Shown here in pieces: positions 16,013 to 54,378 of a DNA stretch of 64,000 nt. Both the position numbers and the translations under genes were made by a program. Position 1 is the stretch's first letter. The number at the start of each line of letters is the position of its first letter. The DNA comes from Terriglobales bacterium (GTDB taxonomy: Bacteria > Acidobacteriota > Terriglobia > Terriglobales > Acidobacteriaceae): contig JAICWP010000007.1 of NCBI GenBank assembly GCA_025934735.1, positions 186,001-250,000 on the forward strand, given 5' to 3'. Under the pieces are notes generated by a model. It did not search any database and was not told the DNA's origin. It saw only the letters and a list, made by a program, of their open reading frames with translations.

Positions 16013-16178
16013 ACCGTGTGGGCACGGGACTCCGCCCCGTGCACGGCGAGCGCGGCTCGCCTGGTTCTCACCGAACGGCATCCTGCTGAGAGCCTTCAGC
16101 CCCGAAGCATCTCGCGTGCTCCACCGGAGGTTTAATTCCGAAATCCTCTGCGTCCTTCGCGTCCTCTGCGGTTTTCAT
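16013..16178. repeat. Family A element followed by a family D stretch
   Basis: 16013-16061 is a family A copy (accgtgtgggcacggg, with GCACGGG/CCCGTGC pairing at 16022-16042, then ggcgagcgcggctcgcc). 16097-16130 resembles part of family B (ccttcagccccgaag ... tctcgcgtgc). 16144-16177 is family D (cctctgcgtcc, ttcgcgtcctctgcggttt). The block fills most of the 235 bases between the convergent rbsK and pheA and contains no gene. Confidence 0.6.
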
Positions 16179-16984
16179 TGGGCTTCCGGATACACCCCCA
16201 GCACCTTCACCCACTCCGCCACTTCCTCCAAATGCCGCAGACCGCGCTCCCGGGCCGCTGCATCCTTCCCTGAGATGTCCACATAAAACACGTACTCCCA
16301 GGGCTTGCCTCGCACCGGCCGCGATTCAATCTTCACCAGGTTCAGATCGCGCAACGCAAATACGCTCAGCGCCTTGAACAGCGCCCCCGGAATATTCTTT
16401 AAGGAAAACGCAATGGACGCCTTGTTCGCCCCAGGCAAAATGCGCTTCTTCCTCGAAACCAGAAAAAAGCGGGTGAAGTTTTGCCGGTCGTCTTCCAGGT
16501 CCGACTGCAGAATGTGTCCCTTGTACTCCGCCGCGGCCTGCCTCGGTCCAATCCCTGCGGCATCGGGCAAGCGCTCCTCAACCACGCGCTTCACGCTCCC
16601 TGCCGTGTCGTAAAACGGCTCCGGCCGGATCTGCGGATGCTGGTGGAAAAACTCGCGGCACTGGTCCAGCGCCACGGGATGGGAGAACGCCCGCCGCAAA
16701 TCCTTTAGCTTCACTCTGGGAGCGGCGATCAGGTGATGGTTGATGCGCAGCCGGTACTCGCGCTCGACGAACACACCATGGCTTAGCAGCAGGTCAAAAT
16801 GCTCCAGCACTGACCCCGCCAGCGAGTTCTCGATAGGAATGACTGCGGCTGTCACCGTCCCATGCTGCAGCCGCTCAAAAACTTCGCGCGAGCGCGTGCA
16901 GGGCACCACTTCGCACTTGGGCGCCAGCTTCAGCGCCGCCTCATGGCTGAAGCAGCCGCGTTCCCCCTGGATGGCAACTTTCAC
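16175..16984 (-). CDS. pheA: Prephenate dehydratase with C-terminal ACT domain
   Basis: Converts prephenate to phenylpyruvate for phenylalanine synthesis. 269 aa, monofunctional (no chorismate mutase domain). N-terminal VAIQGERGCFSHEAA and VIPIENSLAGSV; a central catalytic segment EPFYDTAGSVKRV with the conserved Thr; then from about residue 195 an ACT domain with KNIPGALFKALSVFALRDLNLVKIESRP. ESRP is the phenylalanine-binding motif, so end-product inhibition is expected. The start is GTG 16984, overlapping the aroF stop by four bases (GTGA), so the two enzymes are translationally coupled and share the attenuator-like leader upstream. Confidence 0.95.
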   Translation of the reverse strand: MKVAIQGERGCFSHEAALKLAPKCEVVPCTRSREVFERLQHGTVTAAVIPIENSLAGSVLEHFDLLLSHGVFVEREYRLRINHHLIAAPRVKLKDLRRAFSHPVALDQCREFFHQHPQIRPEPFYDTAGSVKRVVEERLPDAAGIGPRQAAAEYKGHILQSDLEDDRQNFTRFFLVSRKKRILPGANKASIAFSLKNIPGALFKALSVFALRDLNLVKIESRPVRGKPWEYVFYVDISGKDAAARERGLRHLEEVAEWVKVLGVYPEAQ

Positions 16985-18012
16985 TGCGCGCTGGCGCTCA
17001 GGGCGCGGGCAATCGCCGGCAGTGGCGCGTACAGCGCCTGCATGGTTTCCGCAAAGCCCTTGAAGTCCAGCGACTGCGCGCCATCAGAAAGCGCGCGCTC
17101 CGGGCAGGGGTGCACTTCGATGATGACTCCGTCTGCGCCCAGCGCGAAAGCGGCTCGGCAAAGCGGCGCAATCAGGCTGCGCCGCCCCGTGCCGTGCGAA
17201 GGATCGGCCATCACCGGCAGGTGGGAAAGCTCGCGCGCCAGCGCCACCGCCGCCAGGTCCAGCGTGTTGCGCGTTTCCGTTTCGAAAGTCTTGATGCCGC
17301 GCTCGCACAGCACCACCTGCGAGTTGCCGCCGGCCAGCAGGTATTCCGCGGCCAGCAGCCATTCCTTGACCGTGGCCGAGGGCCCGCGCTTGAGCAGCAC
17401 CGGCTTGTTGACCACCGCCAGCTTGCGCAGCAGCGCGAAGTTCTGCATGTTGCGCGCTCCCACCTGCAGCATGTCCGCGTGCTCGCAGATCAGGTCAATG
17501 TCTTCCATGCTCATGACCTCGGTCACTACCGGCATGCCCGTCTCGCGCCGCACCGCACTCAAAATCTCCAGCGCCTCCAGCCCCAGGCCCTGGAAGTCGT
17601 AGGGTGAGGTGCGCGGCTTGTAAGCGCCGCCCCGCAGCATCACCGCCCCCGCTTCTTTCACCGCCTGCGCTGTGGCCAGCATCTGTTCCCGCGATTCCAC
17701 TGAGCACGGCCCCGCGATCACCACGAATTCTCCGCCGCCAATTCGCACTCCACCCACGTCCACCACCGTGCGGTGCGGCTTGGTCTGCCGGTTCACCAGC
17801 TTGAACGGCGTGGCGATGGTAACCACGTCTTCCACACCCGCCGCCGCCTTCAGCGCCTCCAGTTCGTGCCGCCGGCCGTTGCTGCCTACCGCGGCCACGA
17901 TGGTCTTGGTTTCCCCGCGGGTCACGTGCGCCTGGAACCCAGCCTCGCGGATGCGATCGATCACGTGCTCGATTTCCTGTTCGCTTGCCCCTTCCGCCAT
18001 GTTCACGATCAT
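16981..18012 (-). CDS. aroF: 3-deoxy-7-phosphoheptulonate synthase (type I-beta, with N-terminal ferredoxin-like domain)
   Basis: First enzyme of the shikimate pathway: phosphoenolpyruvate plus erythrose 4-phosphate gives DAHP. 343 aa. Residues 1-70 are the ferredoxin-like regulatory domain found in Thermotoga-type enzymes (MIVNMAEGASEQEIEHVI). The barrel follows: VIAGPCSVES, LRGGAYKPRTSPYDFQGLG, MPVVTEVMSMEDIDL, QVGARNMQNF, LLKRGPSATVKEW, VMADPSHGTGRRSL. ATG 18012 has AAGGAG eight bases ahead. It forms an operon with pheA. A terminator and an aromatic-rich leader peptide lie between its promoter and its start. Confidence 0.95.
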   Translation of the reverse strand: MIVNMAEGASEQEIEHVIDRIREAGFQAHVTRGETKTIVAAVGSNGRRHELEALKAAAGVEDVVTIATPFKLVNRQTKPHRTVVDVGGVRIGGGEFVVIAGPCSVESREQMLATAQAVKEAGAVMLRGGAYKPRTSPYDFQGLGLEALEILSAVRRETGMPVVTEVMSMEDIDLICEHADMLQVGARNMQNFALLRKLAVVNKPVLLKRGPSATVKEWLLAAEYLLAGGNSQVVLCERGIKTFETETRNTLDLAAVALARELSHLPVMADPSHGTGRRSLIAPLCRAAFALGADGVIIEVHPCPERALSDGAQSLDFKGFAETMQALYAPLPAIARALSASAQ

Positions 18013-18122: not shown

Positions 18123-18156
18123 ATAAAAAAGCCGCGATCCCTGAGAGATCGCGGCT
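18123..18156 (-). terminator. Intrinsic terminator in the aroF leader (attenuator)
   Basis: On the minus strand AGCCGCGATC pairs perfectly over 10 bp with GATCGCGGCT (arms 18147-18156 and 18130-18139, 7-base loop), followed directly by TTTTTTATT. This is a textbook rho-independent terminator. It lies 24 bases after the stop of the leader peptide and about 110 bases before the aroF ATG. As placed, it would end both ilvC read-through and transcripts from the aroF promoter unless antitermination occurs. Confidence 0.85.
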
Positions 18157-18180
18157 GCTTGGCTAGAACCTTTGGGCTAC

Positions 18181-18270
18181 TTATGCTGCCCGGGCACACG
18201 GTTCGCCGGCGCCGCTACTCTCCAAGTAGTAGCGGTAAAATCGCCGCCAGCTAAATCGCGCCGTATGCAT
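18181..18270 (-). CDS. Aromatic-amino-acid-rich leader peptide (29 aa), candidate attenuator
   Basis: Tiny ORF starting MHTAR, continuing FSWRRFYRYY and ending ARAA-stop, so two Phe, one Trp and three Tyr fall within ten codons. It lies just after a near-consensus promoter and just before an intrinsic terminator, upstream of DAHP synthase and prephenate dehydratase. An 8-bp hairpin (CCGCTACT/AGTAGCGG, 18212-18219 with 18228-18235) overlaps the Tyr codons, as in classical ribosome-mediated attenuators. Its ATG is only about 3 bases from the predicted transcript start, so translation may be leaderless; no Shine-Dalgarno is visible. A long competing antiterminator was not obvious: only GCGGC/GCCGC pairing between the leader hairpin and the terminator arm. 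Confidence 0.65.
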   Translation of the reverse strand: MHTARFSWRRFYRYYLESSGAGEPCARAA

Positions 18271-18278
18271 GGTCCGTG

Positions 18279-18307
18279 AATATACCTGCCCTTCGTTTCT
18301 ATGTCAA
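18279..18307 (-). promoter_or_regulatory. Sigma-70 promoter of the aroF-pheA operon
   Basis: On the minus strand TTGACA (18307-18302), a 17-base spacer and TATATT (18284-18279) match consensus at 11 of 12 positions. The predicted transcript start is near 18273, eight bases after the ilvC stop (18315) region and just ahead of the leader-peptide ATG. This indicates that aroF-pheA is transcribed separately from the ilv genes. Confidence 0.8.
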
Positions 18308-18314
18308 CAATGCC

Positions 18315-19349
18315 TTACGCCGGCACCGCCGTGCGCTTGCTCTCCTGCTTCACTACTACCGGATCCAGGAACTTCATCATGGCCCGCAGCCGCGCTCCCA
18401 CTTCTTCGATCAGTTGCTCCTGCTCGCTGGCACGCTTGCCTTCAAACCACTCCCGTCCCGTCTTGTTCTCCTCGATCCACTTGCGGGCGTAGGTGCCGTC
18501 CTGGATCTCGCGCAGCATCTGCCGCATGGTCTTGCGCGTCTCATCGGTGATCACGCGCGGCCCGCCCGTGTAATCTCCGTGCTCGGCGGTGTCGCTCACC
18601 GAGTACCGCATGTAGTTCAGCCCGCCGCGGTAGATCAGGTCCACAATCAGCTTCAGCTCGTGCAGGCACTCAAAGTAGGCGATCTCCGGCTGGTATCCCG
18701 CCTCCACCAGCGTATTGAACCCAGCCTTGATCAGCTCGCTCACTCCGCCGCAGAGCACGGTCTGCTCGCCAAACAGGTCAGTTTCTGTCTCTTCGGCGAA
18801 AGTGGTTTCCAGCACCCCGGCGCGCGCCGCTCCAATCGCCTTCGCGTAGGAGAGCGCCTGCTCGCGGGCGCGACCGCTGGCGTCCTGATGCACGGCCAGC
18901 AGCGCCGGCGTGCCCCCGCCTTCCACAAACACTTCGCGGACGCGGTGTCCCGGCGCCTTAGGCGCCACCATCGTCACATCCACATCCTTCGGACAAGCAA
19001 TGGTGCCGTAGCGGATGTTGAACCCGTGTGCGAACATCAGCGTCTTGCCCGCGGTCAAGGCCGGGCGAATTTCTTTCTCGTAAACTTCCGGCTGGGTGGT
19101 GTCTGGAATCAGGATCATGACCACATCGCCCCAGCGCGCGGCCTCGGCTACCGAGGTCACGGTCAGCCCTGCCGCCTGCGCCTTCGCCCGCGAGCGGCTG
19201 CCTTCGTGCAATCCCACCCGCACGCTTACCCCGCTGTCCTTTAGGTTGAGGGCATGGGCATGGCCCTGCGAACCGTAGCCTATGATGGCCACCTTCTTCG
19301 CCCGGATTAGTGCCAGGTCCGCATCTTCGTCGTGATAAATCTTCGCCAT
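18315..19349 (-). CDS. ilvC: Ketol-acid reductoisomerase (NADP+)
   Basis: Isomerises and reduces acetolactate or acetohydroxybutyrate in valine and isoleucine synthesis. 344 aa, class I. Visible motifs: [24 protein letters not shown] (nucleotide-binding GxGxxG), [11 protein letters not shown] (phosphate-binding loop favouring NADPH), [22 protein letters not shown], and the metal-site segment [19 protein letters not shown] with the later helix [21 protein letters not shown] 19349 ([12 protein letters not shown]) has AAGGA nine bases ahead. The frame stays open upstream to 19439 through a repeat element, but that extension (MTGFARQ...) is not like the family. Last gene of the ilvDBNC cluster. 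Confidence 0.96.
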
Positions 19350-23437: not shown

Positions 23438-23491
23438 CAGAACCTGTTTCCCGATTGCTGGCCCGGCTGGAGCAGGCAAGGCGTAGGAGGA

Positions 23492-23545
23492 ACTATCGCA
23501 GGTTGAAACTGATTAGTCAAGCTTATGATATTTATATCACCATAA
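23492..23545 (-). promoter_or_regulatory. Candidate ilv operon promoter and upstream palindrome
   Basis: On the minus strand TTGACT (23520-23515), a 17-base spacer and GATAGT (23497-23492) give a predicted start near 23485, about 48 bases before the ilvD ATG. Immediately upstream lies an AT-rich imperfect palindrome with arms CTTATG and CATAAG (about 23522-23545). It stands out in GC-rich DNA and could be an operator or UP-like element. Confidence 0.45.
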
Positions 23546-23568
23546 GTGTGGCTAATAGACTCATGCGC

Positions 23569-24003
23569 TCAGGAATGTCGCTGCGGCTTGGCGAGATACG
23601 GTACGCGAAGCACGTGCCGGTTCTCTCCTCCTCTCCATTGCAGCTCGCACACCGCCTGCGCTCCCCAACGGCAAAGGCCCACGGCCCCCGCCGCCAGGAG
23701 CAAGTCGAACGGCTTAAGCCAGGAGTATGCCAGCGAAGCTGCCACTGTTCCCCACAGCAGCGGCGTGGCCATCCAAATAAACCATTGCCCGATAAAAGTG
23801 TAGGGCTCGCGTTTCGGTTCGGAAACAGGGTCCGCGATGCACAGGGCGGACAGCGCGGAACCGGCCACCGCCAGCGCCACAGCCAGCCAGAACGAGGCTG
23901 CCCCCGCCAGAGCGCTGAATTGTGCGCTGCCCGGCGCCAGCCCGATAGCTGCGGCTAAGCCGATGCTCGGGGAAACCCGCATTGTGGCCTGCGGAAATCG
24001 CAT
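23569..24003 (-). CDS. Small hypothetical membrane protein
   Basis: 144 aa, not recognised. Three to four hydrophobic segments are visible (SIGLAAAIGLAPG, FWLAVALAVAGSALSALCIA, FIGQWFIWMATPLLWGTVAASLAY, FDLLLAAGAVGLCRWG) with a basic C-terminal tail ending LAKPQRHS. Starts at ATG 24003, or at the internal ATG 23982 (MRVSPSIGL). It ends just before the ilv promoter region on the same strand. Gene reality rests on the long hydrophobic pattern and normal base composition. Confidence 0.55.
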   Translation of the reverse strand: MRFPQATMRVSPSIGLAAAIGLAPGSAQFSALAGAASFWLAVALAVAGSALSALCIADPVSEPKREPYTFIGQWFIWMATPLLWGTVAASLAYSWLKPFDLLLAAGAVGLCRWGAQAVCELQWRGGENRHVLRVPYLAKPQRHS

Positions 24004-28922: not shown

Positions 28923-29906
28923 TTACGCCGCCAGCATTTCCTGCTCTTCAAATCCGCCCACCCGGCCCAGCACCTCCCGCGAGCACTCCACCCTGAACAG
29001 CGGCACATGAGATGTGGCCAGGCGGGTCTTGTGGGGCTGCTCTCCGGTCATGTAGTCGCAGTTCAGCCCTTCTTCCAGGCTTTGCCGCGTCACTTCAAAA
29101 AGCAGCACCATCCCCGGCGAGAAGTGCGCCCAGGCGTGGTCATAATATGTCGTGTAGAAGCGCCGGGTGGTTCCATCGCGGAAAGTGACCAACGCGGCCA
29201 CCAGGGTTGCGCCCTGGCTGAGCGTGTACACATCGCAAGGCGCAGGCCCGTTTTCCGCGGCGGTCACCAGAAACTGGCTGCGGGCCGAGTCGCGGAACAG
29301 GTTGGCGGGAACCTGCGACGCCTTCAACTGATAAATGAGCCGCAGCAGTTCCGCCGAGGGCCGCGGTTCGTGCCGGAACTCCACTCCCTGGCGCAGGATC
29401 TTGCGCCAGCGGCTGCCGATGCGCGTGTGGGTGGTCATCAGCTGTTCTGCGGAGGTGTTACGGGTAAGCACGCAGGGAGCGTTGACAAAGGGCAGGGGCG
29501 AAAAATCTTCCCACGCAAGGCGGCGCTCTTCCCCACGCAGGGCGGCAAAAAACATTGGCAGCTTCAGTACCGCCACCTCCTGCCAGGCATGGCGCAGCAC
29601 TGCTGGATCGCCTTGCGAGAGAACGTCGCGGTAGTCGAACAGCGCTTCACCCAGGAAGGTAAAACCGTGGTCGGCAATGGCGCCGGGGATCAGGGCCGCC
29701 CCGGCATCGCTCTCCACCAGCACCACGTAGGGCTCTTCCCTGCCGGCAAACATTTCCGCTGCCAGGCGGTTCCAGGAAAAGCTTTGAAATAGGGTGGAGG
29801 GACAGGCGCTGTACAGGTTCTCCCAGACCGGGCGCAAACGGTCTATTTCGGCGGGCGAGCGCGCCACCACTTTGCGAAGCAAACGCTTCTCTCCTCCGTC
29901 GTCCAT
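28923..29906 (-). CDS. GNAT-fold (FemAB/CelD-like) acyltransferase
   Basis: 327 aa. Residues ~30-170 resemble the N-terminal half of BcsL/CelD-type GNAT proteins (LYSACPSTLFQSFSWNRLAAEMF, PYVVLVESDAGAALIPGAI). The C-terminal half has the acceptor-domain pattern RFYTTYYDHAWAHFSPGMVLLFEVTRQSLEEGLNCDYMTGEQPHKTRLA, where the D-x-M-x-G-x-x-P-x-K-x-R element is typical. Members are linked to exopolysaccharide synthesis or to peptidoglycan-like aminoacyl transfer. Substrate unknown. It stands alone and is divergent from the iron operon. Confidence 0.75.
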   Translation of the reverse strand: MDDGGEKRLLRKVVARSPAEIDRLRPVWENLYSACPSTLFQSFSWNRLAAEMFAGREEPYVVLVESDAGAALIPGAIADHGFTFLGEALFDYRDVLSQGDPAVLRHAWQEVAVLKLPMFFAALRGEERRLAWEDFSPLPFVNAPCVLTRNTSAEQLMTTHTRIGSRWRKILRQGVEFRHEPRPSAELLRLIYQLKASQVPANLFRDSARSQFLVTAAENGPAPCDVYTLSQGATLVAALVTFRDGTTRRFYTTYYDHAWAHFSPGMVLLFEVTRQSLEEGLNCDYMTGEQPHKTRLATSHVPLFRVECSREVLGRVGGFEEQEMLAA

Positions 29907-53977: not shown

Positions 53978-54378
53978 GCGCGGCGTGTAGACGTTTACAT
54001 TTGGAACCAGGAACCTGGCAGAGAGAGCACTTGAGGATTGAACACGGACAGGGCGGGATTCCTGTGGAGCTATTGTGTCGCCCCGCGGGGGCTCGGTTTG
54101 GTTGCGGCTTGTACCCACGGCTAACGCCGTGGGCTACATTCTTACGGCGCTTTCGCGCCTGAGGCCATATTCAATTCCCAGATCCCAGGCAGCGTGAATA
54201 CGCCAAGGTGTGTACGAAATTGGGTGCAGACCACAGCATGTTCCTGGAGAGGCATTACGAGCTAGAGGCATGACCAGCCAGGGCCTTACCAGCTAGAGGC
54301 AATACAGCTACAAGCGTTTTAGGCAGAAGCTTGCGGCGGTGAACCACTACGGGTCTACCAATCTGGAATCAGCAATCT
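53978..54378. repeat. Intergenic region with hairpin repeat and low-complexity DNA
   Basis: No gene. CCCACGGC and GCCGTGGG (about 54115-54134, loop taac) form a perfect 8-bp hairpin followed by acggcgctttcgcgcctgag, a layout like the other GC palindromes. Imperfect agctagaggca-type units fill about 54255-54320. Confidence 0.5.

Follow-up and report, generated by a model that had tools for sequence, protein, structure and literature searches.

The locus described here lies within a window of 64,000 nucleotides (the whole stretch of DNA that was analysed) from a genome of the Acidobacteriota which, judging by its named relatives, is placed near Terriglobia. A leader region occupies positions 18307 to 18125 on the minus strand, between the end of ilvC at 18315 and the beginning of aroF at 18012. 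It carries a promoter, a short open reading frame (ORF) rich in aromatic codons and an intrinsic terminator, and it precedes two overlapping genes of aromatic amino acid biosynthesis. The features are the following:

18279–18307, minus strand: σ70-type promoter TTGACA-17-TATATT, with TTGACA at 18307–18302, 17 nt, and TATATT at 18284–18279.
18181–18270, minus strand: leader peptide ORF MHTARFSWRRFYRYYLESSGAGEPCARAA, ATG start, 29 codons (29 aa) plus stop.
18226–18255, minus strand: control-codon block FSWRRFYRYY, with Phe6, Trp8, Phe11, Tyr12, Tyr14 and Tyr15; aromatic content kept in relatives.
18212–18235, minus strand: 1:2 hairpin CCGCUACU-loop-AGUAGCGG (anti-antiterminator or pause hairpin), exactly 8 bp, over the Tyr codons.
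18211–18222, minus strand: antiterminator segment 2 GAGAGUAGCGGC, read as GAGAG-UA-GCGGC.
18143–18155, minus strand: antiterminator segment 3 GCCGCGAUCUCUC, read as GCCGC-GAU-CUCUC; terminator 5' arm and loop.
18125–18156, minus strand: intrinsic terminator (3:4), 12-bp stem (8 G-C), 3-nt loop, then TTTTTT.
16981–18012, minus strand: aroF, type I-beta DAHP synthase, predicted first regulated gene (NF006421, E 2.4e-144).
16175–16984, minus strand: pheA, prephenate dehydratase (NF008865, E 6e-66), overlapping aroF by 4 nt.

Most of this anatomy had been proposed in the initial annotation of the DNA. The near-consensus promoter, the 29-codon ORF and the 8-bp hairpin over the Tyr codons were all recovered, and curated profiles confirmed the DAHP synthase and the prephenate dehydratase downstream. 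The terminator with its T-run is likewise present, with six T residues, but its stem is 12 bp long rather than the 10 bp first reported.

The promoter matches the consensus at 11 of 12 positions and is the sole match of this kind in 800 bases, against an expectation of 0.2 ± 0.5. In the window, 8 nt separate the end of the -10 box from the leader ATG, and the promoter-to-ATG spacing is the same in most relatives. Across most leaders, this distance is 6–12 nt, most commonly 8 or 9; in some (L032, L111, L150, L152 and L154), 34–41 nt lie there instead. Transcription usually starts 6–8 nt past the -10 box, so that the 5' end of the RNA would fall at the AUG or a few nucleotides ahead of it. Given the position of the -10 box, the window transcript is predicted to start at the AUG or 1–3 nt upstream, that is, leaderless or nearly so, as the initial annotation had already remarked, and the leader ORF is presumably translated. 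A transcript arriving from ilvC would lack any obvious ribosome site at the AUG of the leader and would be prone to termination; we infer from this that regulation in the window acts mainly on transcripts from the local promoter, read-in from ilvC being mostly terminated. Near the start of the ORF, the motif CGATTTA(G/C) (Arg-Phe-Ser/Thr; 18253–18259, minus strand) is near-invariant in the close group and is explained by neither the 1:2 nor the 2:3 pairing.

The 5' arm of the 1:2 hairpin is built of the Tyr-Arg-Tyr codons, and the leader as a whole folds with a z of -3.55 relative to shuffles. Plain folding alone was insufficient to reveal the antiterminator, which emerged when the leader was paired against the 5' half of the terminator: the GAGAG and GCGGC blocks of segment 2 pair with the CUCUC and GCCGC blocks of segment 3. 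Segment 2 is thus part of both the antiterminator and the Tyr-codon hairpin, and segment 3 of both the antiterminator and the terminator, which is the classical attenuator arrangement. The same antiterminator recurs in other letters in related leaders, as GAGGA-A-GCGGC with GCCGC-GA-UCCUC (L002), GGAGU-G-GCGGC with GCCGC-G-AUUCC (L004) and GAGU-A-GCGGC with GCCGC-G-ACUC (L005).

Considering this anatomy, the element is very probably a classical ribosome-mediated transcription attenuator that pools Phe and Tyr, and usually Trp, its response to amino acids being deduced from the sequence. Transcription would begin at the AUG or 1–3 nt ahead of it, and a ribosome would load on the leaderless end. 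When charged tRNA-Phe, tRNA-Tyr and tRNA-Trp are plentiful, the ribosome would clear the aromatic block, segment 2 would be covered or held in the 1:2 hairpin, segment 3 would pair with segment 4, and transcription would stop at the U-run ahead of aroF. When the charged aromatic tRNAs are scarce, the ribosome would stall at one of the six aromatic codons and occlude arm 1, leaving segments 2 and 3 to pair and allowing read-through into aroF-pheA. The initial annotation had recognised the logic of ribosome-mediated attenuation; the conserved competing pairings support it and add the antiterminator, which had not been named.

The mutually exclusive 1:2, 2:3 and 3:4 pairings are kept in relatives, in which the compensatory changes sought were found. 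When 13 near leaders were aligned, both-side changes in the consensus hairpins (1:2 and terminator) numbered 15, as compared with 4.8 in shuffles; the proportion of paired cells was 96.5%, and 34–54% when the alignment was slid. As a control for the pairings between leader and terminator, the leader of each species was paired with the terminator arm of every other species. The native 2:3 pairing was equalled in 1 of 20000 such permutations in the near set and in none of 20000 with all leaders, and the native 1:2 pairing in 49 and 0 of 20000, respectively; the 1:3 pairing, not expected under the model, did not reach significance in the same test.

The effect of a stalled ribosome was assessed by masking its footprint at each codon in turn and folding the transcript through the end of segment 3, an equilibrium and not a kinetic estimate. 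The window leader gave the expected switch: segment 3 formed 12–13 expected pairs with the leader when the ribosome stood on Phe6 to Tyr12, 7–8 pairs when it stood on the last two Tyr codons, and 2–7 beyond the block (5 at the stop). In the ribosome-free window leader, the 2:3 pairing was already partly formed at equilibrium (8.4 pairs). Stalling on the control codons likewise freed segment 2 in most of the 13 leaders; the switch was weak in L004 and absent in L007 and L111.

Comparison of aroF orthologues revealed that the leader accompanies the operon. Among 15 close orthologues (67–100% identity), 14 belong to operons headed by such a leader, 11 of them with the aromatic-rich leader and terminator directly before aroF and three (L031, L111 and L112) with the leader heading an operon whose first gene is aroQ. 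In the remaining one, L006, from a half-complete genome, no leader was seen, and aroF lies behind a cupin-like gene and ilvC. The sequence drifts among relatives, but the aromatic content and the terminator are kept, so that the proposal passes both of the computational refutation tests set by the initial annotation; individual aromatic codons are not fixed, their positions drifting among Phe, Tyr and Trp. Distant families and Bryobacterales carry shorter forms, such as MTRRFSRYYWFTCQVGG and MRKAYVSSFTYRYWRWAR. Under fixed rules, in which an aromatic-rich small ORF has 6 or more F/W/Y in 14 residues, 30 of 135 regions upstream of DAHP synthase genes contain such an ORF followed by a terminator (score ≥6). 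At the same cut-off, the reverse strands gave 0 of 135, and shuffles at a laxer cut-off of 5 gave 1 of 1080. No leader was found ahead of the DAHP-synthase paralogues located behind a chorismate mutase gene (L019–L030).

These data bear on the notion that the terminator merely ends the upstream ilvC operon and that the ORF is a chance frame. The ilvC gene does end only 8 nt ahead of the -35 box, and L002 has the identical neighbour. Nevertheless, the leader and terminator follow the aromatic operon whatever gene lies upstream (a pilin-like gene, a ferredoxin-like gene and others), they stand elsewhere at aroK, trpB and aroQ, and the conjunction of aromatic ORF and terminator is far above chance, all of which makes this explanation highly improbable. 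Beyond the Acidobacteriota, Phe/Tyr-rich leader ORFs followed by terminators were also observed ahead of DAHP synthase genes in Clostridia, Calditrichota and Planctomycetota (L061, L062, L063, L075, L080, L097 and L103), some with plausible antiterminator pairings; this kind of leader may thus reach beyond the phylum.

To explore the distribution of the element, a covariance model was built from the 13 near leaders, and matches to the terminator alone (model positions 116–153) were ignored. Among 200 genomes of the class, 59 gave matches, several of them at two or three sites; in the genome of the window, the aroF copy is the sole match. Of 49 model loci examined, 46 have an aromatic gene immediately downstream: aroK in 14, trpB in 13, aroQ in 10, aroF in 8 and pheA in 1. 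Within the phylum, aromatic operons of no fewer than five kinds are thus preceded by related leaders. The other three loci are all counted against the 46: L181 and L191 are weak matches with no aromatic gene nearby, and L144 was left unclassified by the script, which does not handle the offset of its DAHP synthase frame. The model recognises the near group well and Bryobacterales-type leaders weakly or not at all, and these counts are therefore lower bounds outside the family. As for the neighbours of these genes, aroK behind a leader is usually followed by a gene for an AI-2E-family permease (L151, L153, L156–L158, L174, L176, L178, L180, L182, L185 and L190), an adjacency that is possibly a clue to the substrate of AI-2E-type transporters. 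In L146 and L148, an lpxC-like frame comes after the leader and aroQ, a neighbour that would not be expected next to an aromatic gene.

Action of a terminated leader or its peptide in trans has been reported for rnTrpL/peTrpL of Sinorhizobium, and the anatomy of the window leader predicts a terminated RNA of about 150 nt that might work mainly on other messages, as a small RNA or as a free peptide. Each regulated operon nonetheless has its own cis copy of the element, and it is in cis that the antiterminator pairing is conserved, so that we give this possibility little credence as the main function; trans action could be an additional role besides attenuation. A leader with a terminator ahead of an amino acid operon is also common to T-boxes and amino acid riboswitches, in which case the reading frame would be fortuitous. 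The conservation tracks codons and two pairings rather than a compact aptamer, and Rfam returned no family at threshold in the window leader or in the loci of 14 relatives, a permissive search yielding weak unrelated matches; we consider a member of these classes as implausible as a terminator belonging to ilvC.

The codon content of the leaders is consistent with attenuation by aromatic amino acids. In 25 aroF-type leaders, Phe, Tyr and Trp account for 12.5, 9.8 and 4.2% of residues, respectively, as compared with 2.4, 1.5 and 0.2% in aroF itself (26.5% against 4.1% aromatic residues overall). Phe codons in the leaders are strongly biased towards TTT (57 TTT and 23 TTC), in contrast to aroF (45 and 148). 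The interchange of Phe, Tyr and Trp at aromatic positions suggests that the leader reads a pooled aromatic supply. Moreover, among distinct leaders, Trp codons occur in 28 of 32 headed by aroF, 13 of 13 by aroK and 11 of 11 by trpB (52 of 56 together), but in only 1 of 13 headed by aroQ, which encodes chorismate mutase, the enzyme that opens the branch to Phe and Tyr alone. Uncorrected for relatedness, this contrast has a Fisher value of 2.5e-9 (7e-7 for aroQ- versus aroF-headed leaders alone), and it is also seen within the families labelled f1, f5 and f7. Trp codons thus follow the branch of the operon, as codon-specific sensing predicts. The initial annotation had matched the peptide to all three end products of the pathway, which holds for Phe and Tyr; since 4 of the 32 aroF-headed leaders lack Trp, the input is better described as Phe and Tyr, usually with Trp.

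The codon evidence also weighs on an arrest-peptide mechanism, in which the nascent chain inside the exit tunnel would itself detect a metabolite, much as TnaC does with Trp, and codon supply would not be the signal. In its favour stand the motif F-[ST]-[YF]-R-[YF]-W, which recurs, and the near-invariant CGATTTA of the close group. Across groups, though, no residue is invariant; RNA arms 1 and 2 (CCGC, GUAGCGGC) explain the Arg of YRY as well as the Val-Ala-Ala or Ser-Gly that comes after the block; and the tracking of Trp content with the operon branch is a direct prediction of codon sensing. An arrest peptide is therefore unlikely, even if it is the least improbable of the alternatives weighed here, and codon-dependent attenuation is retained as the preferred reading.

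The mechanism itself is already known from trp, pheA and the aroR-aroF region of Corynebacterium glutamicum. In the last, a leader with Phe-Tyr-Phe lies ahead of aroF and answers to Phe but not to Tyr (PMC4046766, PMC11802643), the attenuator being credited to Neshat et al. 2014 as cited in PMC11802643. This very similar arrangement, an aromatic-codon leader before a DAHP synthase gene with ribosome-mediated attenuation, had not been mentioned in the initial annotation and is taken as a functional analogy only. C. glutamicum belongs to a different phylum; in the window leader, the aromatic codons number six and are of three kinds, and related copies stand ahead of aroK, trpB and aroQ. A leader peptide made without a ribosome site is described for C. 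glutamicum ilvBNC (Morbach 2000, as cited in PMC4046766). The pheA (pheL) and trp (trpL) leaders of E. coli share the four-segment logic, with a 1:2 hairpin, a 2:3 antiterminator, a 3:4 terminator and control codons in arm 1 (PMC11802643), but they are single-amino-acid leaders with a Shine-Dalgarno site and do not precede DAHP synthase. Comparative genomics has likewise defined attenuator families in the ilvB-type uORF motifs, known from Corynebacterium among other bacteria, whose peptides vary and are enriched in several amino acids of a single pathway; these motifs concern the branched-chain pathway and are unlinked to aromatic genes (PMC10272879). A 2005 survey of Actinobacteria reported no conserved RNA element ahead of phenylalanine or tyrosine operons (PMC1262725). 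In agreement with the initial annotation, which knew of no example in the phylum, the literature searched describes no such element in Acidobacteriota; a 2010 comparative survey (Lopatovskaya et al.) fell outside this search and could contain related predictions.

The family of elements, its distribution over several operons, its conserved leaderless start and its phylum appear unreported in the literature searched. We favour, with moderate confidence, a wider proposal in which Terriglobia run much of aromatic biosynthesis (the aroF, aroK, aroQ-pheA and trpB operons) through one leaderless attenuator family in which the choice of codons is adapted to each branch, with Phe, Tyr and Trp before the common pathway and trpB, and Phe and Tyr without Trp before chorismate mutase. 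If true, an attenuator regulon would do the work performed elsewhere by TyrR, TrpR or T-boxes, with one design serving at least five kinds of aromatic operon and its codons tracking the branching of the pathway. In Acidobacteriota, a phylum that dominates in soil and for which few genetic tools exist, the element would provide a concrete mechanism for amino acid control. The leader set also suits questions on the pooling of several tRNA signals, on leaderless translation-transcription coupling and on the evolution of control codons.

Elsewhere in the genome of the window, no attenuator leader was found upstream of trpE, leuA, pheS or ilvD. Within the window, other small frames rich in W or in S/F near terminators, at 29749 and 10363 (minus strand), were dropped as candidates, as they lie inside longer genes or frames. 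Just ahead of two genes, we observed near-palindromes, TTATGGTGATATAAATATCATAAG upstream of ilvD (minus strand, about 23480–23600) and CTTATGATAATGCAAAGAATTATAAG upstream of leuA (L139), which look like a LysR-type operator shared by these branched-chain genes. The sole Rfam match in the window is an Acido-Lenti-1 RNA (RF01687) at 54114–54160 on the plus strand, with 42.8 bits.
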